NCBI GenBank assembly: GCA_945957135.1
Contig: CAMFLK010000006.1
Coordinates: forward strand, 1 to 43,869
Length of the DNA: 43,869 bases
Source of the DNA: an uncultured Rhodospirillales bacterium
Lineage (GTDB): Bacteria; Pseudomonadota; Alphaproteobacteria; Acetobacterales; Acetobacteraceae
Direction of reading: 5' to 3'
Positions 19,675 through 29,830 of this stretch are shown in pieces (position 1 is the first letter of the stretch; every line of letters begins with the position of its first letter). A model generated the notes under the pieces. The model was not told where the DNA came from, made no database searches, and saw only the letters and a list, made by a program, of their open reading frames with translations. The position numbers were made by a program, and so were the translations under genes.

Positions 19675-20706
19675 TCATGCGCCGGCCTGCATCAGGCCGC
19701 GCATGTAGCCCAGCGCGAAGCCGCGGCTGCGGTGTCCCCAGACCGTATCGCCGATCACATGGGGATGGTGGTCAGGCGTGAAATAGCCGCGGTAGCCGGC
19801 GGCGCGGTAGGTCGCCATGGCCCGCGCCATGTCCGCCTTGCCCTCGTCCCAGAACGCCTCCACGAAGCGCTCCCGATCGCCGGTGACGTTGCGGAAATGC
19901 ACGAAGGCGATCGCCCCGCGCCCGGCGAAATGCGCGATGGTGGAATAGAGCTGCTCGGCCGGTAGCATCTGGGTGAAGCAGCCCTGGCAGAAATTGATCG
20001 CGTTCGCCGGGATCGGGCAGATGTCCAGCATGCGGTCGAAGGCTTCGGGGCTGCGCATGATGCGCGCGACGCCGGCGAGCGCCGGCACCTGCGGGTCGGC
20101 CGGATGCATGGCCATGCGCACCCCGGCCGCCTCCGCCACCGGCACCACGGCACGCAGGAAATAGCCGAGGCTTTCCCAGAGCTGGTCGTCGGCCACGACA
20201 CCCATCTCCGTCAGCGGGGCGTCGCGCGCCACGGCATGGTCGAATCCCTCCGCCCGCGCGCCGCCACGGATCGGGATGTCCACGCGCGTGTGCCAGTTCA
20301 CATGCCGCGCCCCGGCATTCACATGCCAGCCATATTGCAGGATGGGGATGCCCGCCTCGCCCATGGCGCGCAGCGACCGGCACCAATTCTCGATTTCCTC
20401 GTCGCGCCCCGCCAGGCCGAGCAGGATCTTCGCGAAGCGGTGCGGGGGCGTGTGGCCGAGACCGAACAGCTCAAGCCCGGATTCCTCCACGGCCGCGCGC
20501 AGTTCGACCAGATCCTCCACCCGCCAGAACGCGTCGCCGCGAAGCCGTTCGGTCAGCGCGTCGGATACCGCGCGCGTGCCCTCGACATTACCCGCGAGTT
20601 CGCCGGCGATGTTGATCGTCGCTCCCTCGGCGCCCAGCTGGCGGATGAAGGCGAGGCTTTCCCGGTCGAAGGCGCCCTTCAGGAAGAACCTGTCCCCGAT
20701 GCGCAT
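19675..20706 (-). CDS. uxuA: Mannonate dehydratase-like protein (UxuA family)
   Basis: INFCQGCFTQM, IAFVHFRNVTG, HHPHVIGD near C-terminus, W HVNAGARHVNWHTR region. Confidence 0.78.
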   Translation of the reverse strand: MRIGDRFFLKGAFDRESLAFIRQLGAEGATINIAGELAGNVEGTRAVSDALTERLRGDAFWRVEDLVELRAAVEESGLELFGLGHTPPHRFAKILLGLAGRDEEIENWCRSLRAMGEAGIPILQYGWHVNAGARHVNWHTRVDIPIRGGARAEGFDHAVARDAPLTEMGVVADDQLWESLGYFLRAVVPVAEAAGVRMAMHPADPQVPALAGVARIMRSPEAFDRMLDICPIPANAINFCQGCFTQMLPAEQLYSTIAHFAGRGAIAFVHFRNVTGDRERFVEAFWDEGKADMARAMATYRAAGYRGYFTPDHHPHVIGDTVWGHRSRGFALGYMRGLMQAGA

Positions 20707-20725
20707 GTCTCCTCCACATATTTAC

Positions 20726-20737
20726 AAATTATAATTT
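20726..20737. promoter_or_regulatory. Palindrome in divergent uxuA/gntR intergenic region
   Basis: AAATTATAATTT, perfect 12-bp palindrome in a 49-bp AT-rich gap within GC-rich DNA. Confidence 0.5.
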
Positions 20738-20755
20738 ATTTGATATCCGCCAGCC

Positions 20756-21499
20756 ATGGTCGGGATCAATGGGGAAACGCCGAGGAATGTCGGGGAAACC
20801 GTCGTGGAGGCGGTGCGGCGGCAGCTGATCGACGCGCTGCTCTATGGCGACCTGGCCGCCCCCACCCGCCTGTTCCCCGCCGATCTCGCCCGCCGCTTCG
20901 CCGTGTCCATCACACCCGTGCGCGAGGCGCTGGCCAGCCTGGCCAGTGACGGGCTGATCGAGGCGATCCCCCGCCACGGCTACCATGTCCGCTCGCTCAC
21001 GCCGGACTATGTGAAGGACCTCTGGCCGGTGCGCCTCGCACTGGAGCTGATGGCCGGCGAGGCCTTCCTGCGCCGCGTCCCCGACGCCGCCGCCCGCCGC
21101 GCGGCGCTGGCCCCGCTCATGGCGTTGCACGCCGATCTCGCCGGCAGCGCCGCCCGGCCCCAACGCAGCCACGCCACGCTGAACGGCCAGTTCCACGAGA
21201 CGCTGGTCCAGCTGTCCGGCAACGCCCTGCTCGCCGACACCTATCACGGCATCCGCTTCCGTCTGTTCGGCGCCTGGGTGCAGCGCGCGAGCCGGGGCTG
21301 GCGCGACCGGCTGCCGAGCGAGCAGGCGGAGCACCAAGCCATTCTGGATGCGCTGGTCGTCGGCGACGCCGCCGCCTTCGACACGGCCCTGCGCCGCCAC
21401 CTCGCCCGCTCGCTCGCCGACGCGCTGACCGACCTGGAACAGGCCGGCGCCGCGGCGGCGGCGCCCCGCAAAAGACCACGGTCCAACACGCAGAGCTGA
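20756..21499 (+). CDS. GntR-family transcriptional regulator (FadR/FCD subfamily)
   Basis: wHTH FPADLARRFAVSITPVREALASLASDGLIEAIPRHGYHV plus C-terminal FCD domain. Confidence 0.93.
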   Translation: MVGINGETPRNVGETVVEAVRRQLIDALLYGDLAAPTRLFPADLARRFAVSITPVREALASLASDGLIEAIPRHGYHVRSLTPDYVKDLWPVRLALELMAGEAFLRRVPDAAARRAALAPLMALHADLAGSAARPQRSHATLNGQFHETLVQLSGNALLADTYHGIRFRLFGAWVQRASRGWRDRLPSEQAEHQAILDALVVGDAAAFDTALRRHLARSLADALTDLEQAGAAAAAPRKRPRSNTQS

Positions 21500-21522
21500 G
21501 CATTCAGCCCGGGAGGAACACC

Positions 21523-22827
21523 ATGAAAAAGCTTTTCCGTGCCATCCTGGCGGCCGGCATCGCCCTCGCCGCGCCCGCCTTCTCCGCCCCCGCGCAGGCC
21601 CAGGTCACGCTGCGCATGTGGACCTTCCTCAACCCCGCCGGCACCACGCCGCGCGAGGTGGCGCTGGCCCGCATCATCGCGGATTTCGAGAAGGCCAATC
21701 CCGGCATCAAGGTCGCGGTCGAGCCCCAGGTCTGGGACCAGATGACGCCGAAATTCCTCGCCGCCGCCCGCGCCGGCAACGCGCCGGACATCACCTGGGT
21801 GGTGACCGACCTGCTGGGCCAAGCCAAGCGCTCCGGTGAACTGGCCGACCTCAATCCGTTGTTCATCGACGGCTGGACCGAGGCCCAGCGCGCCGGCCGC
21901 AAGGACGCCTACTGGGACGCCTGCGCCGAGGGCGGCCGGCAATACTGCCTGGTGCTGTCGCGCAACTACATCAGCATCCTCTACCGCCGCGACCTGCTCG
22001 CCCAGGCGGGCATCGACCCCGCGAGCCTGACAACCTGGCCCGCCTTCACCGAAGCCGCAAAGAAGCTGACCGAGCGCAACGCCGCCGGGCAGGTCACGCG
22101 CTGGGGCTTCGGCCAGGCCTTCTCCGAGGCGCAGGCCGACCCGCAGATGATGATCCCCATCATGCTCAATCTGCAGGGACGGCTGTTCACCAAGGAGGGG
22201 GCGGCCGATTTCGCGACCCCGGCCGGACTCACCGCTCTCATGAGGCAGACGGAGATGGTGACCAAGGCGGGCGTCACGCCGCCGGACGCCGTGAGCTGGA
22301 CCACCGATGATGCCTATGAGGCGTTCGCCTCCGGCCGCGCCGCGATGATCGAGGGCGCCTCCGTGCGGGTTTCCACCATGCAGGCCAAGCTGGGGGCGGA
22401 CAAGGTGGGGCTGATGCTGTGGCCCGGCGAGAACGGCGCGCCGCACGCGCCGGCGATGATGGCCGGCTGGGCCGTCGCGGCCTGGTCCCATGGCCGCCAT
22501 CTGGCCGAGGCGGGCCGGTTCGTCGAATTCCTCACCGGTCCGAAAGCCGACGCGATCTGGATCACCGCGGCCGGCCAGCTGCCGATGACGCCGGAAGGCC
22601 GCGCCGCCGCCGCGGACTACCTGTCCCGGCCGGAGAATCAGTATCTCTCCGTGGCCGCCGAGGGGGTGGCGAAATATGCCTGGATGGTGCCCACCGACCT
22701 CTCGGTCAACGGCTTTCGCCAGGCGCTGAACAAGGCGGCCCAGGCCGTGCTGACCGGGGGCGCCACGGCCGAGCAGGCACTGAAGACCGCGGCCGAGGAT
22801 TTCAACCGCATCAACAAGGTTCGCTGA
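21523..22827 (+). CDS. Carbohydrate ABC transporter substrate-binding protein
   Basis: Signal peptide; VTLRMWTFLNP...DFEKANPGIKVAVEPQVWDQMTPKFLAAARAGNAPDI. Confidence 0.92.
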   Translation: MKKLFRAILAAGIALAAPAFSAPAQAQVTLRMWTFLNPAGTTPREVALARIIADFEKANPGIKVAVEPQVWDQMTPKFLAAARAGNAPDITWVVTDLLGQAKRSGELADLNPLFIDGWTEAQRAGRKDAYWDACAEGGRQYCLVLSRNYISILYRRDLLAQAGIDPASLTTWPAFTEAAKKLTERNAAGQVTRWGFGQAFSEAQADPQMMIPIMLNLQGRLFTKEGAADFATPAGLTALMRQTEMVTKAGVTPPDAVSWTTDDAYEAFASGRAAMIEGASVRVSTMQAKLGADKVGLMLWPGENGAPHAPAMMAGWAVAAWSHGRHLAEAGRFVEFLTGPKADAIWITAAGQLPMTPEGRAAAADYLSRPENQYLSVAAEGVAKYAWMVPTDLSVNGFRQALNKAAQAVLTGGATAEQALKTAAEDFNRINKVR

Positions 22828-22832
22828 GCGCC

Positions 22833-23993
22833 ATGCGCATCCACCGCGTTGAGGCCCTTCCGGTCGAGGCCAGCTTCGCCACCATCTTCGGCGGCGAGGC
22901 CAAGGTGCCGCAGGCCCTGCGCATCCCGGCGGCGCATTTCCGGCGCATCCCAAGGCGGGGTCAGTTCTCCACCGTGGTGCGCATCACCGCCGAGGATGGC
23001 GGCATCGGCTGGGGCGAAGCCTTCGGCCTGCCCACGCCGGGCGCCACCGCCGCGATGATCACGGACGTGATCGCCCCGGCGCTGGCCGGCGCGGCGTTGG
23101 AAGCGCCGCAGGCGATGCTCACCGACCTGCGCAGCTACTTCATCTCCATGGGCCATGTCGGCGGGCCGGCGATGGAGGCGTTGAGCGGGGTGGACATCGC
23201 GCTGTGGGACCTCCAGGCACGACGCGCCGGCGTGCCGCTGGCCACCCTGCTCGGCGCCACGCCCGGACCGGTCGCCACCTATGCCAGCCCGGTCGGCTTC
23301 CAGCCGACACCGGAGGAAAGCGCCGCGGTCGCGCGCGGCCTGATCGGCGAGGGCTTTCGCGCCCTGAAGATCAAGGTGGGGCGTGGCCCGGCCATCGACG
23401 CCACGCATGTCGCCGCCGTGCGCGGCGCCGTCGGGCAGGAGGTGACGCTGATGACCGACGCCAATTGCGGCTACAGCCGTGACGACGCCATCGCCGCCGC
23501 CCGCGAATTCGCCGCCTCCGGCGTGGCCTGGCTGGAGGAACCGCTGCGGCCGGACGACCACGCGGGCAGCGCCGAGGTGCGCCGCGCCTCCCCCATCCCC
23601 ATCGCCGGCGGCGAGAACGAGTTCACCGTGGAGGCCTGCGCGCGCCTCGCCGCCGCCGGCGCGGTGGACATCGTGCAGCCCAACATCGCGCGCATCGGCG
23701 GCGTGTCCGGCCTGCTCGCGGTGGGTGCGATGTGTGCGCGAAACGGCTTGCGGCTGGCGCCGCACGGGGTGGGCACCTGCATCGGCGTGTCCGCCGCCCT
23801 GCATGCCTGCCGGGCCGCCGAGGGGTTCCTGACCTACGAGGCCAATCGCCTGCTCAACCCGCTGCGCGACACGATGGGCGCGCACGGGATGCGCCTGGAT
23901 GACGGCCGGCTCGTCGCCCAGGACCTGCCCGGCCATGGCGGCGAGCCCGACCCGGACCAGTTCGCGCGCTGGCGCCCGCCCGCCCATGCGTAG
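22833..23993 (+). CDS. Mandelate racemase/muconate lactonizing enzyme family (enolase superfamily)
   Basis: LKIKVG (KxK), MTDANCGYS, WLEEPLRPDD, GGENEF, LAPHGVG motifs. Confidence 0.92.
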   Translation: MRIHRVEALPVEASFATIFGGEAKVPQALRIPAAHFRRIPRRGQFSTVVRITAEDGGIGWGEAFGLPTPGATAAMITDVIAPALAGAALEAPQAMLTDLRSYFISMGHVGGPAMEALSGVDIALWDLQARRAGVPLATLLGATPGPVATYASPVGFQPTPEESAAVARGLIGEGFRALKIKVGRGPAIDATHVAAVRGAVGQEVTLMTDANCGYSRDDAIAAAREFAASGVAWLEEPLRPDDHAGSAEVRRASPIPIAGGENEFTVEACARLAAAGAVDIVQPNIARIGGVSGLLAVGAMCARNGLRLAPHGVGTCIGVSAALHACRAAEGFLTYEANRLLNPLRDTMGAHGMRLDDGRLVAQDLPGHGGEPDPDQFARWRPPAHA

Positions 23994-24840
23994 CTTCGCG
24001 CTGGCCGCCTATATCGGGCCGAGCGTGCTGACGCTGGCGGCGCTGCTGATCTCGCCGGTACTCTACGCCACCTGGTTCAGCCTGCATCGCATCGAATACG
24101 GCACGCCCGGCGACTTCATCGGCCTGGCCAATTACGCGCTGCTGCTGCACGACGCCAACCTGCCGCCCATGCTGGGCCGCACCGCCCTGTTCACCGCCGC
24201 CAGCGTGGTCCTCACGCTCGTCGTCGCCCTCGCCCTGGCCTGCTGGATCGACCGGCTGCGCGGCCGGCTGGCCTTCGCGGTGCAGCTGATCGCGGTGCTG
24301 CCCTGGATCATCTCCGCGGTGGTGGCGACGCTGCTGTTCCGCTGGGTGTTCGTCCATGATGCCGGGCTGGGCTTCGCCGCCCTGCGCGCCCTGGGCGGCC
24401 ACGCCACGCAGCCGCTGAACAGCCCGAGCGGGGCGATGGTGCTGCTGGTCATCGTCTCCGTCTGGAAGCGTACGGGCTATGCGGTGATCGTGCTGCTCGC
24501 CGGGCTCAAGAGCATTCCCGCCGAACTGGCCGAGGCCGCGCGCATCGACGGCGCCGGTCCCTGGCAGATGTTCCTGCGCATCACCCTGCCGCTGCTGCGC
24601 GGCCCGCTGATCCTGGTCACCATCGTGATGGCCCTGTCCTGCCTGAACACGGTGGAGACGCCGCTGGTGCTCACCGGCGGCGGCCCGGCCGGGGCCACGC
24701 GGGTGTTGCCGATCGACATCTACGAGCGCGCCTTCGTCGATTTCGACATCGGTGCCGCCACCACGCTGGCGCTGGCCGCCTTCGCGGTGAACCTGCTGCT
24801 GGTGCTGGGCTACGTGCGGCTGGCGCGGCTGCATGTCTAG
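23986..24840 (+). CDS. Sugar ABC transporter permease (MalF type)
   Basis: EAA loop LAEAARIDGAGPWQMFLRITLPLLRGPL; multi-TM; overlaps neighbours. Confidence 0.92.
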   Translation: MRSFALAAYIGPSVLTLAALLISPVLYATWFSLHRIEYGTPGDFIGLANYALLLHDANLPPMLGRTALFTAASVVLTLVVALALACWIDRLRGRLAFAVQLIAVLPWIISAVVATLLFRWVFVHDAGLGFAALRALGGHATQPLNSPSGAMVLLVIVSVWKRTGYAVIVLLAGLKSIPAELAEAARIDGAGPWQMFLRITLPLLRGPLILVTIVMALSCLNTVETPLVLTGGGPAGATRVLPIDIYERAFVDFDIGAATTLALAAFAVNLLLVLGYVRLARLHV

Positions 24841-25660
24841 GCGCGGCCATCTGCCGGCGACCCTGGCGGGGCTGGCGCTGCTGCTGGTGCTGAACGTGCT
24901 GCCGCTCGCCTGGGGGGTGCTGACCTCGTTCAAGAGCGGCGGCGACATTCTGAGTTACCCGCCGCAGCTGTTCTTCCGCCCCACCCTCGCCCATTACCAG
25001 CGGGTGATCGCCGAGGGGTTCAGCCACCGCCTGCTGGTCAGCCTGCTCGACTCGTTGGCCGCGGTGGGTCTGACCCTGCTGGTCGCCATCCCCGCCGCCT
25101 ATGCGTTCGACCGCGGCCGCTTCGCCCTGCGCCGGCCGCTCTATCTGCTGGTGGTGGCTTGCATCCCCCTGGCCCTCGGCGCCTCGGCGCTGATCATCCC
25201 CGCCTATATCTGGTTCATGCGCCTCGGCCTGAACGACACGGTGGTGGTGCTGCCGCTGATCTATGCCGGCTACCAGATTCCCATGGCGATCTGGATCGTC
25301 AAGAACGCCATCGAGGTGGTGCCGGTCGAGCTGGACGAGGCGGCGACGATCGACGGCTGCACCCATTTCGGCGTGTTGTGGCGGATGATCCTGCCGCTGG
25401 CGCGCTCGGGCATCGGGGCGGCGGCGATCCTGGCCTTCGTCGGCTCGTGGAACGAGTTCCTGGCCGGCTCGGTGATGGTGGACGCGCTGGCGCTGAAGCC
25501 GGTGCAGCCGGCGATCTATGCCTTCGTCGGCTTCTTCGGCCGCGAATGGGGGCCGCTGACCGCCGCCGCCAGCCTGGCGATCCTGCCGGTGGTGGCGGTG
25601 TTTGCGCTGTTCGGCCGGCTGATCATTTCCGGACTGACCAGTGGGGGCGTGAAGGGGTGA
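24833..25660 (+). CDS. Sugar ABC transporter permease (MalG type)
   Basis: EAA loop LDEAATIDGCTHFGVLWRMILPLARSG; multi-TM. Confidence 0.92.
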   Translation: MSRRGHLPATLAGLALLLVLNVLPLAWGVLTSFKSGGDILSYPPQLFFRPTLAHYQRVIAEGFSHRLLVSLLDSLAAVGLTLLVAIPAAYAFDRGRFALRRPLYLLVVACIPLALGASALIIPAYIWFMRLGLNDTVVVLPLIYAGYQIPMAIWIVKNAIEVVPVELDEAATIDGCTHFGVLWRMILPLARSGIGAAAILAFVGSWNEFLAGSVMVDALALKPVQPAIYAFVGFFGREWGPLTAAASLAILPVVAVFALFGRLIISGLTSGGVKG

Positions 25661-27357
25661 TCTGGGACGCGATCATCGTGGGCGGCGGCAGCGCCGGCTG
25701 CGTGCTGGCCGGCCGGCTGTCGGAAGACCCAAGCCTACGCGTGCTGCTGATCGAGGCGGGGCGCGACGTGAAGCCCGGCGAGGAAGGCGCGGCGATCCTG
25801 GACATGTATCCCGGCCGCGCCGCCTTCGACCCCGCCAACCACTGGCCCGGCCTGCGCGCCCGCTTCCAGCCGGTGGGCGACAACGCGCAGGACCGGCCCG
25901 AGCCACGCCCCTACGAGCAGGCGCGGTTGATCGGCGGCGGCTCCAGCATCAACGGCCAGATCGCCAATCGCGGCACGCCCGAGGACTACGATGGCTGGGT
26001 GGCGGCCGGCGCCACCGGTTGGGGGTGGCAGGACGTGCTGCCCTACTTCATCCGCCTGGAAACCGACCTCGCCCGCCACGGCCCCCTGCATGGCACGTCC
26101 GGTCCCATTCCGATCCACCGCATCCCCCGCGCGCAATGGCCCGGCTTTTCCCATGCCGTGGAACGCGCGCTGGCGGCGCGCGGGTTCCGCGACATCGACG
26201 ACCAGAACGGCGTGTTCACCGACGGGTATTTCCCGCAGACCCTGTCCAATGACGGCACCCACCGCGTGTCGGCCGCGCGCGGCTATCTCACCGCCGCGGT
26301 GCGGGCACGGCCCAACCTGCGTGTCATGGCCGGGCGGCAGGTGCGTGGCCTGGCGATGGACGGACCCATCGCGCGCGGCGTGGTGGTGGAGGGCGCGCCG
26401 CCGGAGACCATCGCCGGGCGCGTGGTGATCGTCAGCGCCGGCGCCATCCACAGCCCCGCACTGCTGATGCGCGCGGGCATCGGCCCGGCGGCGGCGCTGC
26501 GCCGGCACGGCATCGCGGTGATCGCCGACCGGCCCGGCGTGGGCGGCAATCTGCAGGAGCATCCGGGCATCTCGCTCGCCGCCTATCTCGCCCCACGCGC
26601 CCGGCTGCGCGGCACCACCCGGCGGCATATCCATCTCGGCCTGCGCTACAGCTCCGGCCTCGCCGGCGGCGCGGCGTCGGACATGTATTTCATGGCCGCG
26701 GCGAAATCGGCCTGGCATCCCCTGGGCCGGCGCATCGGCGCGCTGATCGCCTGGATCAACACGCCGCATTCGCGCGGCCGTGTGCTGCTGCAAGGCGCCG
26801 ACCCGCTTCTGGAGCCGGTCGCCGAGTTCAACCACCTCGCCGACCCGCGCGACGCGGAACGGCTGAAGGACGCGGCGCGGATGATGGGCGCGCTGATGGC
26901 CAGCCCGGACCTGGCGCCCGCATTCCGTGCGGCCGGCCCCGCGAGCTACAGCGGCTTCGCGCGCGCGCTCGGCCGCCAGTCTTTGCGCAACTACCTGATC
27001 AGCGCGCCGCCGGCCTGGCTGCTCGACTGCATTCCGCCGCTGCAGGCCACATTCTTCCGCCATGTCGTCAGCAACGGCGTCAGGCTCGCGGACCTGCTCG
27101 GCGATGACGACGCGCTGGACGCCTATGTGCGCGCCCGGGTGTTCGGCCAGTGGCACCCCGCCGGCACCTGCCGCATGGGCGACCAGGCGGCGCCCGACAG
27201 CGTGGTGGACCCGGCCGGCCGGGTGATCGGCGCCGAGGGGCTGCGGGTGGCCGACGCCTCGGTGATGCCGCTCATTCCCCGCGCCAACCTGAACATCCCG
27301 GTGATCATGATCGCCGAGAAACTGGCCGGGGCGATCCGCGCCGACCTGACGCGGTAA
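25657..27357 (+). CDS. GMC family FAD-dependent oxidoreductase
   Basis: DAIIVGGGSAGCVLAGRLSEDP, GGGSSINGQIANRG, C-terminal WHPAGTCRMG and PRANLNIPVIMIAEK; GTG start overlapping permease TGA. Confidence 0.94.
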   Translation: MIWDAIIVGGGSAGCVLAGRLSEDPSLRVLLIEAGRDVKPGEEGAAILDMYPGRAAFDPANHWPGLRARFQPVGDNAQDRPEPRPYEQARLIGGGSSINGQIANRGTPEDYDGWVAAGATGWGWQDVLPYFIRLETDLARHGPLHGTSGPIPIHRIPRAQWPGFSHAVERALAARGFRDIDDQNGVFTDGYFPQTLSNDGTHRVSAARGYLTAAVRARPNLRVMAGRQVRGLAMDGPIARGVVVEGAPPETIAGRVVIVSAGAIHSPALLMRAGIGPAAALRRHGIAVIADRPGVGGNLQEHPGISLAAYLAPRARLRGTTRRHIHLGLRYSSGLAGGAASDMYFMAAAKSAWHPLGRRIGALIAWINTPHSRGRVLLQGADPLLEPVAEFNHLADPRDAERLKDAARMMGALMASPDLAPAFRAAGPASYSGFARALGRQSLRNYLISAPPAWLLDCIPPLQATFFRHVVSNGVRLADLLGDDDALDAYVRARVFGQWHPAGTCRMGDQAAPDSVVDPAGRVIGAEGLRVADASVMPLIPRANLNIPVIMIAEKLAGAIRADLTR

Positions 27358-27429
27358 GTCACCGCCGGCCGCTGTCCAAGCCCCGGAAATGTGCCATCAT
27401 CCCGGCCCCGCGATGAACCGGAGACCGGC

Positions 27430-28464
27430 TTGCCCACCACCGCCGCCGCCCAGCAGGTCTCCGTCCGCTCCCAGGCCGTGACCGCGCGCCTCACCCGCGC
27501 GGCCATCTTCCTCACGGTTGGCCTCGGCGCCGGGGTGGAGGCGGAGGCGAAGACGCGGCAGCTCTGCGCCGACCTGTCCTCGCTGGTGCGTGGGGTGGGC
27601 TTTCGCGCGGCCGATGGCGGGCTGTCCTGCATCCTCGGCATCGGCGCCGACGCCTGGGACCGGCTGTTCGGCGCGCCCAGGCCCAGGGAATTGCACAGGT
27701 TCCGCGAAATCAACGGCGTGCATCACGCCCCCGCAACACCTGGCGACCTGCTGATCCACATCCGCGCCGCGCGAACCGATCTCTGCTTCGAACTGGCCAC
27801 ACAGATCATGTCCCGGCTGGCCGGCGCCGCCACGGTGATCGACGAGGTACACGGCTTCCGCTACTTCGACGACCGCGATCTGCTGGGATTCGTGGACGGC
27901 ACCGAAAATCCCGTGGATCAGGACGCGATCGACGCCACGGTGATCGGCGCCGAAGACCCCGCCTTCGCGGGTGGCAGCTACGTCATCACCCAGAAATACC
28001 TGCACGACCTCGGCAAGTGGAACGCCATCCCCGTCGAGCAGCAGGAACGCATCGTCGGGCGGCAGAAGCTGTCGGACATCGAGCTGGAAGAGGCGGCCAA
28101 GCCCAGCTACGCCCACAACGTTCTCACCAATATCGAGGAGAACGGGGAGCCGTTGCAGATCCTGCGCGACAACATGCCGTTCGGCGAAATCGGCAAGGGC
28201 GAGTTCGGCACCTATTTCATCGGCTACGCCCGTTCGCCCAGCCGGATCGAGCGGATGCTCGACAACATGTTCATCGGCCTGCCGCCGGGCAACTACGACC
28301 GGCTGCTCGACGTCAGCCGGGCGGTGACGGGCACGCTGTTCTTCGTGCCCTCCGCCGCCTTCCTCGATGCCGTCACGCCGGAACCGGCCGCCGCCGCAAC
28401 GGCGCCATTCCCCGACTCATCGCTGCGTATTGGCTCCCTGAAAGACGAGGCAGGCCATGAATAA
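27430..28464 (+). CDS. DyP-type peroxidase with C-terminal encapsulin-targeting peptide
   Basis: GFVDGTENP, YAHNVL (haem His region), ILRDNMPFG, FIGYARSP; tail DSSLRIGSLKDEAGHE. Start uncertain: TTG 27430 with GGAG upstream, or 27391. Confidence 0.93.
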   Translation: MPTTAAAQQVSVRSQAVTARLTRAAIFLTVGLGAGVEAEAKTRQLCADLSSLVRGVGFRAADGGLSCILGIGADAWDRLFGAPRPRELHRFREINGVHHAPATPGDLLIHIRAARTDLCFELATQIMSRLAGAATVIDEVHGFRYFDDRDLLGFVDGTENPVDQDAIDATVIGAEDPAFAGGSYVITQKYLHDLGKWNAIPVEQQERIVGRQKLSDIELEEAAKPSYAHNVLTNIEENGEPLQILRDNMPFGEIGKGEFGTYFIGYARSPSRIERMLDNMFIGLPPGNYDRLLDVSRAVTGTLFFVPSAAFLDAVTPEPAAAATAPFPDSSLRIGSLKDEAGHE

Positions 28465-29263
28465 CCTCCACCGCGAACTTGCCCCCATCTCCGACGCCGC
28501 CTGGGCCGAGATCGAGCAGGAAGCATCCCGTACCCTCAAGCGGTACCTCGCGGCGCGGCGTGTGGTGGACGTGCCCGAACCCAAGGGGGTGGGCCTCGCC
28601 GCCGTGGGTACCGGCCATGTCGAGGGCATCGAGGGGCCCGGCGAGGGCATCCAGGCGGCGCGCCGCCTCGCCGATCCGCTGGTGGAACTGCGCGTTCCCT
28701 TCGCCCTGTCCCGCCAGGCCATCGACGACGTGGAACGCGGCTCCACCGATTCCGACTGGGCACCGCTGAAGGAGGCGGCCCGCCGGATCGCCTTCGCCGA
28801 AGACCGCGCGGTGTTCGATGGCTACCGCGCCGCCGGAATCGGCGGCATCCGCCCGGGCGCCAGCAACCCTGCCCTGCCCCTGCCACCCTCCGTCATGGGC
28901 TACCCCGCCATGGTCGCGCAGGCCGTCAACCAGCTCCGCCTCGCCGGCTGCAACGGTCCCTACCGGCTGGTGCTCGGGGCAGCCCCCTTCACCGCCGTCA
29001 GCGGCGGCACCGATGACGGTTACCCCATCCTCCAGCACATCCTGCGCCTCATCGACGGCGACATCGTCTGGGCACCGTCCATCCAGGGCGGCCTGGTGCT
29101 GACCACCCGCGGCGGCGACTTCGAGCTGGATCTCGGCCAGGACATCTCGATCGGCTATCTCCGCCATACCGACACCGAGGTGACGCTGTACTTCCAGGAG
29201 AGCTTCACCTTCCGGCTGCTGACAACGGAAGCCGCCGTGGCGCTCCTCCCGGCCGCAGGGTAG
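28457..29263 (+). CDS. Family 1 encapsulin shell protein (linocin/CFP29-like)
   Basis: MNNLHRELAPISDAAWAEIEQEASRTLKRYLAARRVVDV, ...LADPLVELRVPFALSRQAIDDVERGSTDSDWAPLKEAARRIAFAEDRAVFDG, ...SIGYLRHTDTEVTLYFQESFTFRLLTTEAAV. Confidence 0.95.
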   Translation: MNNLHRELAPISDAAWAEIEQEASRTLKRYLAARRVVDVPEPKGVGLAAVGTGHVEGIEGPGEGIQAARRLADPLVELRVPFALSRQAIDDVERGSTDSDWAPLKEAARRIAFAEDRAVFDGYRAAGIGGIRPGASNPALPLPPSVMGYPAMVAQAVNQLRLAGCNGPYRLVLGAAPFTAVSGGTDDGYPILQHILRLIDGDIVWAPSIQGGLVLTTRGGDFELDLGQDISIGYLRHTDTEVTLYFQESFTFRLLTTEAAVALLPAAG

Positions 29264-29269
29264 GGCCCG

Positions 29270-29830
29270 CTATCCCGCCGGCTTCCCCACCGCCTCGAAC
29301 GTCACCTTCAGCACGGCGTCGGGGGTGAGTTTGCGGTTGAACACGGCGCCGGCCGCGTAGCTGTCGGGGTTCTCGCCTTGCTGGAGCCGGCGCAGCGAGG
29401 CGTCCTGCCCGACGATCAGGCGCACGGTCTGGGTGCTGCGGGAGCGGTCGCGCAGCAGCAGGAAGATGGGGGCGGGGCGGCCCTGGTCGAAATCCATGAT
29501 GCGGGCGGCAGCGAGGCTCTGGGGCTGCAGGGTGAGATAGGCGCCGCGTTCAACGAACTGCACCGAGGCCATTGTCGGTATTTCCACCTTGCCGACGCGC
29601 AGGGTGAGCGGCTGCTGGCAGCCGGATGTCGGGCAGTCCACGGCGACGGGGTCGCCGAGCTTCGCGCCGGCGGCATCGACCTGGACGAGGGTGACATGCC
29701 ATTGCGCGTTCTCGGGCGCGACGTAGAGCGGGCCGGCGGGCAGCGGCGCCTGCGGCACCTGGGTGTTCGGGCGTGGCTGAGCCAGGGCCGGCCCGGCGGC
29801 CAGGACCGCGATCAGCAGAAACCGTCGCAT
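29270..29830 (-). CDS. Secreted hypothetical protein
   Basis: Signal peptide MRRFLLIAVLAAGPALAQ; Cys pair DCPTSGC; overlaps the glnD stop. Confidence 0.65.
   Translation of the reverse strand: MRRFLLIAVLAAGPALAQPRPNTQVPQAPLPAGPLYVAPENAQWHVTLVQVDAAGAKLGDPVAVDCPTSGCQQPLTLRVGKVEIPTMASVQFVERGAYLTLQPQSLAAARIMDFDQGRPAPIFLLLRDRSRSTQTVRLIVGQDASLRRLQQGENPDSYAAGAVFNRKLTPDAVLKVTFEAVGKPAG

Follow-up and report, generated by a model that had tools for sequence, protein, structure and literature searches.

Genes and features of the locus

The window, by which we mean the whole stretch of 43,869 nucleotides analysed in this study, contains a gene for a DyP-type peroxidase that overlaps a gene for a family-1 encapsulin shell protein. 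The relevant features are the following:

19675-27357: tight run of genes for a GntR/FCD regulator, a solute-binding protein, an enolase-superfamily enzyme, two ABC permeases and a GMC oxidoreductase
27420..27423, + strand: GGAG, Shine-Dalgarno-like site of the DyP gene, 6 nt ahead of TTG 27430
27430..28464, + strand: DyP-type peroxidase cargo gene, 344 aa, identified by ORF reading, profile matches and heme-pocket residues
28375..28413, + strand: Ala/Pro-rich linker TPEPAAAATAPFP, by sequence reading
28414..28443, + strand: targeting peptide core DSSLRIGSLK, compared with the consensus GSLxIGSLK
28444..28461, + strand: post-lysine extension DEAGHE, containing the Shine-Dalgarno site and the start codon of the shell gene
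28447..28450, + strand: GAGG, Shine-Dalgarno-like site of the shell gene, within the Glu-Ala codons of the cargo gene
28457..28464, + strand: 8-nt overlap ATGAATAA, comprising the shell start codon and the cargo stop codon, by sequence reading
28457..29263, + strand: family-1 encapsulin shell protein, 268 aa, identified by profile and solved-structure matches
29270-29830, - strand: protein gene convergent with the shell gene and right after it, no Pfam match

All coordinates in the preliminary description of this locus hold to the base, including the position of the shell ATG at 28457 within the last codons of the cargo gene. The DyP reading frame is open from the TTG start codon at 27430 to the TAA at 28462-28464. 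Its product matched Dyp_perox_C with 191 bits, Dyp_perox_N with 107 bits (Pfam families PF20628 and PF04261) and TIGR01413 with 278 bits, all far above the curated cut-offs. The closest solved homologue in a PDB sequence search was the Klebsiella pneumoniae enzyme (8u4z, 516 bits), and comparison with this homologue identified Asp156 (the GxxDG aspartate, here in GFVDG), the proximal His229 and the distal Arg246 as its heme-pocket residues. The proposed identity as a DyP peroxidase is thus borne out by the curated models, the Klebsiella homologue and the heme residues.

The shell gene runs from the ATG at 28457-28459 to the stop codon at 29261-29263. Its product matched PF04454 (Linocin_M18) with 306 bits and the NCBIfam model encap_f1 (NF041155) with 332.8 bits against a cut-off of 100, which places it in family 1 as had been proposed. 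The closest solved homologue was again from K. pneumoniae (8u50), and for both shell and DyP the next-closest solved homologues belong to another enterobacterial pair. The ungapped, full-length homology to solved shells implies an HK97 fold. The 4.4-Mb draft genome to which the window belongs contains one shell gene.

The targeting tail and its extension

The cargo tail DSSLRIGSLKDEAGHE spans positions 28414-28461 and follows the Ala/Pro-rich linker. The presence of a C-terminal cargo-loading peptide of the SLxIGSLK type behind such a linker is thereby confirmed, the tail reading SLRIGSLK-DEAGHE. The consensus for tags of DyP cargoes is GSLxIGSLK (PMC10960027). The tag of the window, SSLRIGSLK, agrees with it at 7 of the 8 fixed positions, the first Gly being replaced by Ser, and we counted it as a tag of this type. 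At the position of this Ser, 93 of 106 cluster representatives (see below) have Gly, and the equivalent residue in Klebsiella is Gly338. Mutagenesis of the Klebsiella tag showed that Gly338Ala lowered loading and that Lys346Ala abolished it, while Lys347 mattered little (PMC10960027). The shell residues that hold the tag in Klebsiella, Arg34, Asp38, Asp229 and Ile230 (PMC10960027), are all present in the window's shell. The linker is short for the group, with 26 residues between FFVP and the tag compared to a median of 37 in 65 relatives. Taken together, the sequence strongly supports the pairing of a family-1 encapsulin with an adjoining DyP cargo that carries its targeting peptide at the C-terminus. 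The DyP protein is likely to be loaded into the shell, with a strength that is not predictable.

Given the loss of loading in Lys346Ala and the minor role of Lys347, the residues that follow the lysine do not appear to be part of the docking region. Within DEAGHE, the GAGG takes up the Glu codon (GAG) together with the Ala codon's first base, and it lies 6 nt ahead of the shell ATG. As it comes after the docking motif (28414-28443, ending in IGSLK), the Shine-Dalgarno site is shared with the tail extension and not with the docking residues. The view that tail and translation signal share bases therefore holds for the GAGG in the tail codons, but the shared part is the DEAGHE extension.

The locus has the arrangement of a coupled gene pair, namely a stop/start overlap with a Shine-Dalgarno site inside the upstream gene. 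This geometry fits the translational coupling that had been suggested, and it is conserved in relatives, but the coupling itself is a step further. A hairpin masking the shell start was not found, and the region was less structured than control stretches. Because no hairpin hides the shell start, independent initiation of the shell gene is possible, and the structure does not require that the shell be made only when the cargo is translated.

The gene neighbourhood

The run of genes at 19675-27357 looks like a set for the uptake and use of a sugar acid. No gene for an ABC ATPase was seen in it, and a UxuA-like gene is located on the strand opposite to the run. Beyond the shell gene and the convergent gene that follows it, glnD is encoded on the other strand, as is a mutS-like ORF that we recognised by eye. 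The five structural genes of the upstream run lie on the same strand as the DyP gene and lead tightly toward it, the GMC gene ending only 72 nt upstream. The peroxidase might then be a step of this operon, comprising a sugar or sugar-acid ABC transporter, an enolase-family enzyme and the GMC oxidoreductase, with the latter feeding it hydrogen peroxide. We regard this as improbable, however, because GMC, enolase or transporter genes of this kind were absent from the region just upstream of DyP at the other loci, where only formate dehydrogenase recurs, and because the window's genome contains several other GMC homologues. As no GMC gene was found just upstream of DyP elsewhere, the GMC oxidoreductase was rejected as a conserved source of peroxide. 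The idea that the host context may be new adds little, as other DyP-encapsulin pairs lack the sugar-transport and GMC genes that precede the window's pair.

Formate dehydrogenase near the pair has been reported for enterobacteria (PMC10960027) and recurs in some Rhizobium/Agrobacterium, Pseudomonas, enterobacterial and actinobacterial loci. It was not seen in the neighbourhood of the window's pair. In Shinella, Bosea and Roseateles (L148, L149, L153), genes for a J-domain protein and a CbpM chaperone-modulator are located upstream of the pair. This setting represents a recurrent stress-type context that is unlike the enterobacterial one with formate dehydrogenase and RpoH.

Cargo-shell junctions in related loci

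From public genomes and plasmids we collected 176 DyP-shell junctions with DyP directly upstream of the shell gene, which formed 109 clusters at 90% shell identity. The tail motif is common to nearly all of these clusters. The gap between the genes is at most 4 nt in 86 of the 109 clusters, and in 85 of these 86 the best Shine-Dalgarno site of the shell gene falls entirely within sense codons of the cargo gene. The 8-nt overlap seen in the window occurs in 18 of the 109. It should be noted that the position of the Shine-Dalgarno site alone is no evidence of selection, because close or overlapping geometry largely forces this position.

The remaining 23 clusters, with gaps of 5 nt or more, are largely but not exclusively from Gordonia, and the Shine-Dalgarno site lies outside the cargo gene in all of them. 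When the genes are apart in this way, the tag usually stops at Lys, Arg or His, and the cargo ends at this anchor residue without any extra residues in 16 of 22 cases. The median number of residues after the anchor is 0 when the genes are apart versus 5 in the close group. On the shell tree, six independent supported pairs are available for the association between separated genes and a short tail, of which about four agree and none opposes (p 0.125). A tree-independent association is therefore suggested, though not proven. The tags of the Gordonia loci L041, L061, L063, L067, L071, L072 and L079 end in IGSLH or IGSLR, and with gaps of 26-83 nt and a separate strong Shine-Dalgarno site these loci offer a naturally occurring counterpart to the overlapping junctions. 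Family-1 shell genes without an upstream DyP gene (L073-L077, L083, L085-L093, L097) mostly follow an IGSLR-type tag as well, with a purine-rich site that lies in the tail or immediately behind it. Embedding of the ribosome site may thus also occur with cargoes of other classes.

Tails in the group usually continue for 3-6 residues beyond the lysine, as would be expected if the entire tail including DEAGHE were the docking signal and the Shine-Dalgarno site were there by coincidence. Yet, only SGSLNIGSLK of the tag was resolved in the Klebsiella shell (PMC10960027), and a docking role of the extension is disfavoured by the Klebsiella mutants described above. Moreover, the extensions differ in sequence while keeping the Shine-Dalgarno codons, with Lys-Gly in mycobacteria, Lys/Arg-Arg-Ser in nocardia and rhodococci, and x-Glu-Ala in proteobacteria, and most cargoes whose shell gene has a separate Shine-Dalgarno site lack an extension altogether. 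Docking by the whole tail is therefore very unlikely.

Codon choice at the junctions

The strength of the Shine-Dalgarno site was compared with that obtained by synonymous recoding according to each locus's own codon usage, and pseudo-starts inside the same cargo genes served as control. The observed site was stronger than the recoding median (p <0.5) in 86% of 85 clusters versus 27% at the pseudo-starts (Mann-Whitney U-test, 8e-27). The docking Lys is encoded by AAA in 48 of 62 clusters where 12.3 were expected, a following Gly by GGA in 24 of 26 (2.3 expected), and a following Arg by AGG in 24 of 29 (1.0 expected). Although shared descent means that these codon counts are not independent, they were obtained across Alpha-, Beta- and Gammaproteobacteria and Actinomycetota. 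The subgroup with the 8-nt overlap shows the weakest codon bias as a whole, and the GAGG of the window does not exceed the strength expected when its peptide is recoded synonymously (p 0.45). The signal is a statistical one, seen across the relatives.

Shine-Dalgarno sites in upstream codons were also common at 29 ordinary close junctions that we used as a control (27 annotated and 2 from the window). The mean gain over recoding was -2.3 kcal/mol at the DyP-shell junctions versus -1.5 kcal/mol at the ordinary ones, a difference with a p-value of 0.001 when the p-values were compared (Mann-Whitney U-test) and of 0.07 for the energies. A Shine-Dalgarno site in the codons of the upstream gene is thus a known kind of arrangement, which is perhaps more strictly kept up at the DyP-shell junctions.

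These ordinary junctions also bear on how the shell gene is translated. It is conceivable, although in our view the less probable reading, that the locus encodes a DyP encapsulin whose shell is translated independently, the overlap reflecting genome compaction and the Shine-Dalgarno site being like that of any overlapping pair. The window is indeed rich in overlapping junctions (24833/24840, 25657/25660), the ordinary junctions have sites of the same kind, and the shell start region is unmasked by structure. On the other hand, the codon bias of the DyP-encapsulin junctions is somewhat stronger than that of ordinary junctions and has been kept in all four of the above-mentioned taxa.

Because the codons favour the Shine-Dalgarno motif and the tag usually ends at Lys, Arg or His when the genes are apart, the residues beyond the docking lysine seem to serve chiefly to encode the ribosome site. 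We therefore lean towards the view that, across DyP encapsulin operons, these residues have been kept mainly because their codons form the ribosome-binding site of the shell gene, so that the C-terminal end of the tag would in part be an RNA signal.

Proposed mechanism

The gene identities, the tail, the overlap and the conserved geometry are direct observations, from which we infer assembly, loading, coupling and physiological role of the window's pair. We are highly confident that the locus is a two-gene family-1 DyP encapsulin operon with a tail-docked peroxidase, in which the shell is probably started by ribosomes that finish the cargo. The cargo would be translated first, and its GSLxIGSLK-type tail, here SSLRIGSLK, would dock in a pocket on the inner wall of the shell protein. 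Assembly of about 60 shell subunits would trap the hexameric heme peroxidase, giving a particle that, judging from solved relatives, would consume peroxide. Since the Shine-Dalgarno site lies in the six codons after the lysine and the ATG overlaps the cargo stop, initiation at the shell gene by ribosomes that have just completed the cargo would tie the supply of shell to that of cargo.

Distribution of the shell genes

Family-1 shells occur sporadically. They were found in 4 of 60 relatives, in 14 of 386 genomes in a sample of the class, and in 9 of 399 in a sample of the phylum, one of the latter being below the family cut-off. In a quick shell tree, the window's shell groups with sequences from Methylocystaceae, Sphingomonas and Pseudomonas and not with the shells of its own family. 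This family is probably Acetobacteraceae, since the shells of two genomes belonging to it group with Komagataeibacter and Acetobacter. However, a tree in which the window's shell was constrained to group with the presumed Acetobacteraceae shells was not rejected (AU p 0.62). Therefore, we do not claim a horizontal transfer of the pair into the family.

Relation to previous work

DyP cargo represents the largest class of family-1 encapsulins (PMC8346489), and tight encapsulin operons with likely translational coupling have already been noted (PMC7925596, PMC8229669). The window's pair is an ordinary member of the well-known DyP encapsulin nanocompartments, a class that the preliminary description had recognised as known. 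What the locus contributes is a further host for this large and well-studied class. In the literature searched, a limited collection, we found no discussion of a Shine-Dalgarno site inside an encapsulin tag. The only new, and incremental, point is the comparative dual coding, in which, across the class, the end of the tag gene is also the ribosome site of the shell.

This has some practical consequences. When tags are derived from alignments or swapped for engineering, residues that follow the lysine should not, unless tested, be read as docking determinants. If the tail of a native operon is removed or recoded, less shell may be made, which would confound loading experiments in operon format. 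If the tag end is indeed partly an RNA signal, recoding or swapping tags would alter shell expression as well as docking. The comparative result also offers a cheap test of the balance between cargo and shell amounts.

Comparison with known systems

In Mycobacterium tuberculosis Rv0799c-Rv0798c, the cargo stop overlaps the shell start as in the window (PMC11676171). The mycobacterial relatives that we examined usually have a 4-nt overlap with AAA-GGA (Lys-Gly) as Shine-Dalgarno site, and are of an actinobacterial type unlike the window. The enterobacterial transposon-borne DyP encapsulin (9e5e, 9e4r; PMC12140327) has a shell and a DyP that are homologous to those of the window over their full length. 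The Escherichia coli copy that we examined, however, shows a 1-nt gap, an SLNIGSLKKEV tail and flanking IS elements, none of which are found in the window's pair.

The DyP encapsulin of K. pneumoniae (shell 8u50/8u51, DyP 8u4z; PMC10960027) has a shell like that of the window (418 bits over 266 residues), and shares with it the GSLxIGSLK tail and the four pocket residues. In a plasmid copy, the cargo is located directly upstream of the shell with the same 8-nt overlap. The window's tag begins with Ser where that of Klebsiella has Gly, and the window's pair has neither a formate dehydrogenase directly upstream nor an rpoH-like gene after the shell. Instead, the pair is preceded by the transport/GMC operon and followed on the other strand by the unassigned gene and glnD. 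The nearest shells are those of a Methylocystaceae MAG (L002, 81% identity) and a Sphingomonas plasmid (L140, 77%). Their neighbouring genes differ from those of the window, with UvrA/UvrB located before the Sphingomonas pair, but both share with the window the 8-nt overlap, the LRIGSLK tag and the GAGG in the extension.
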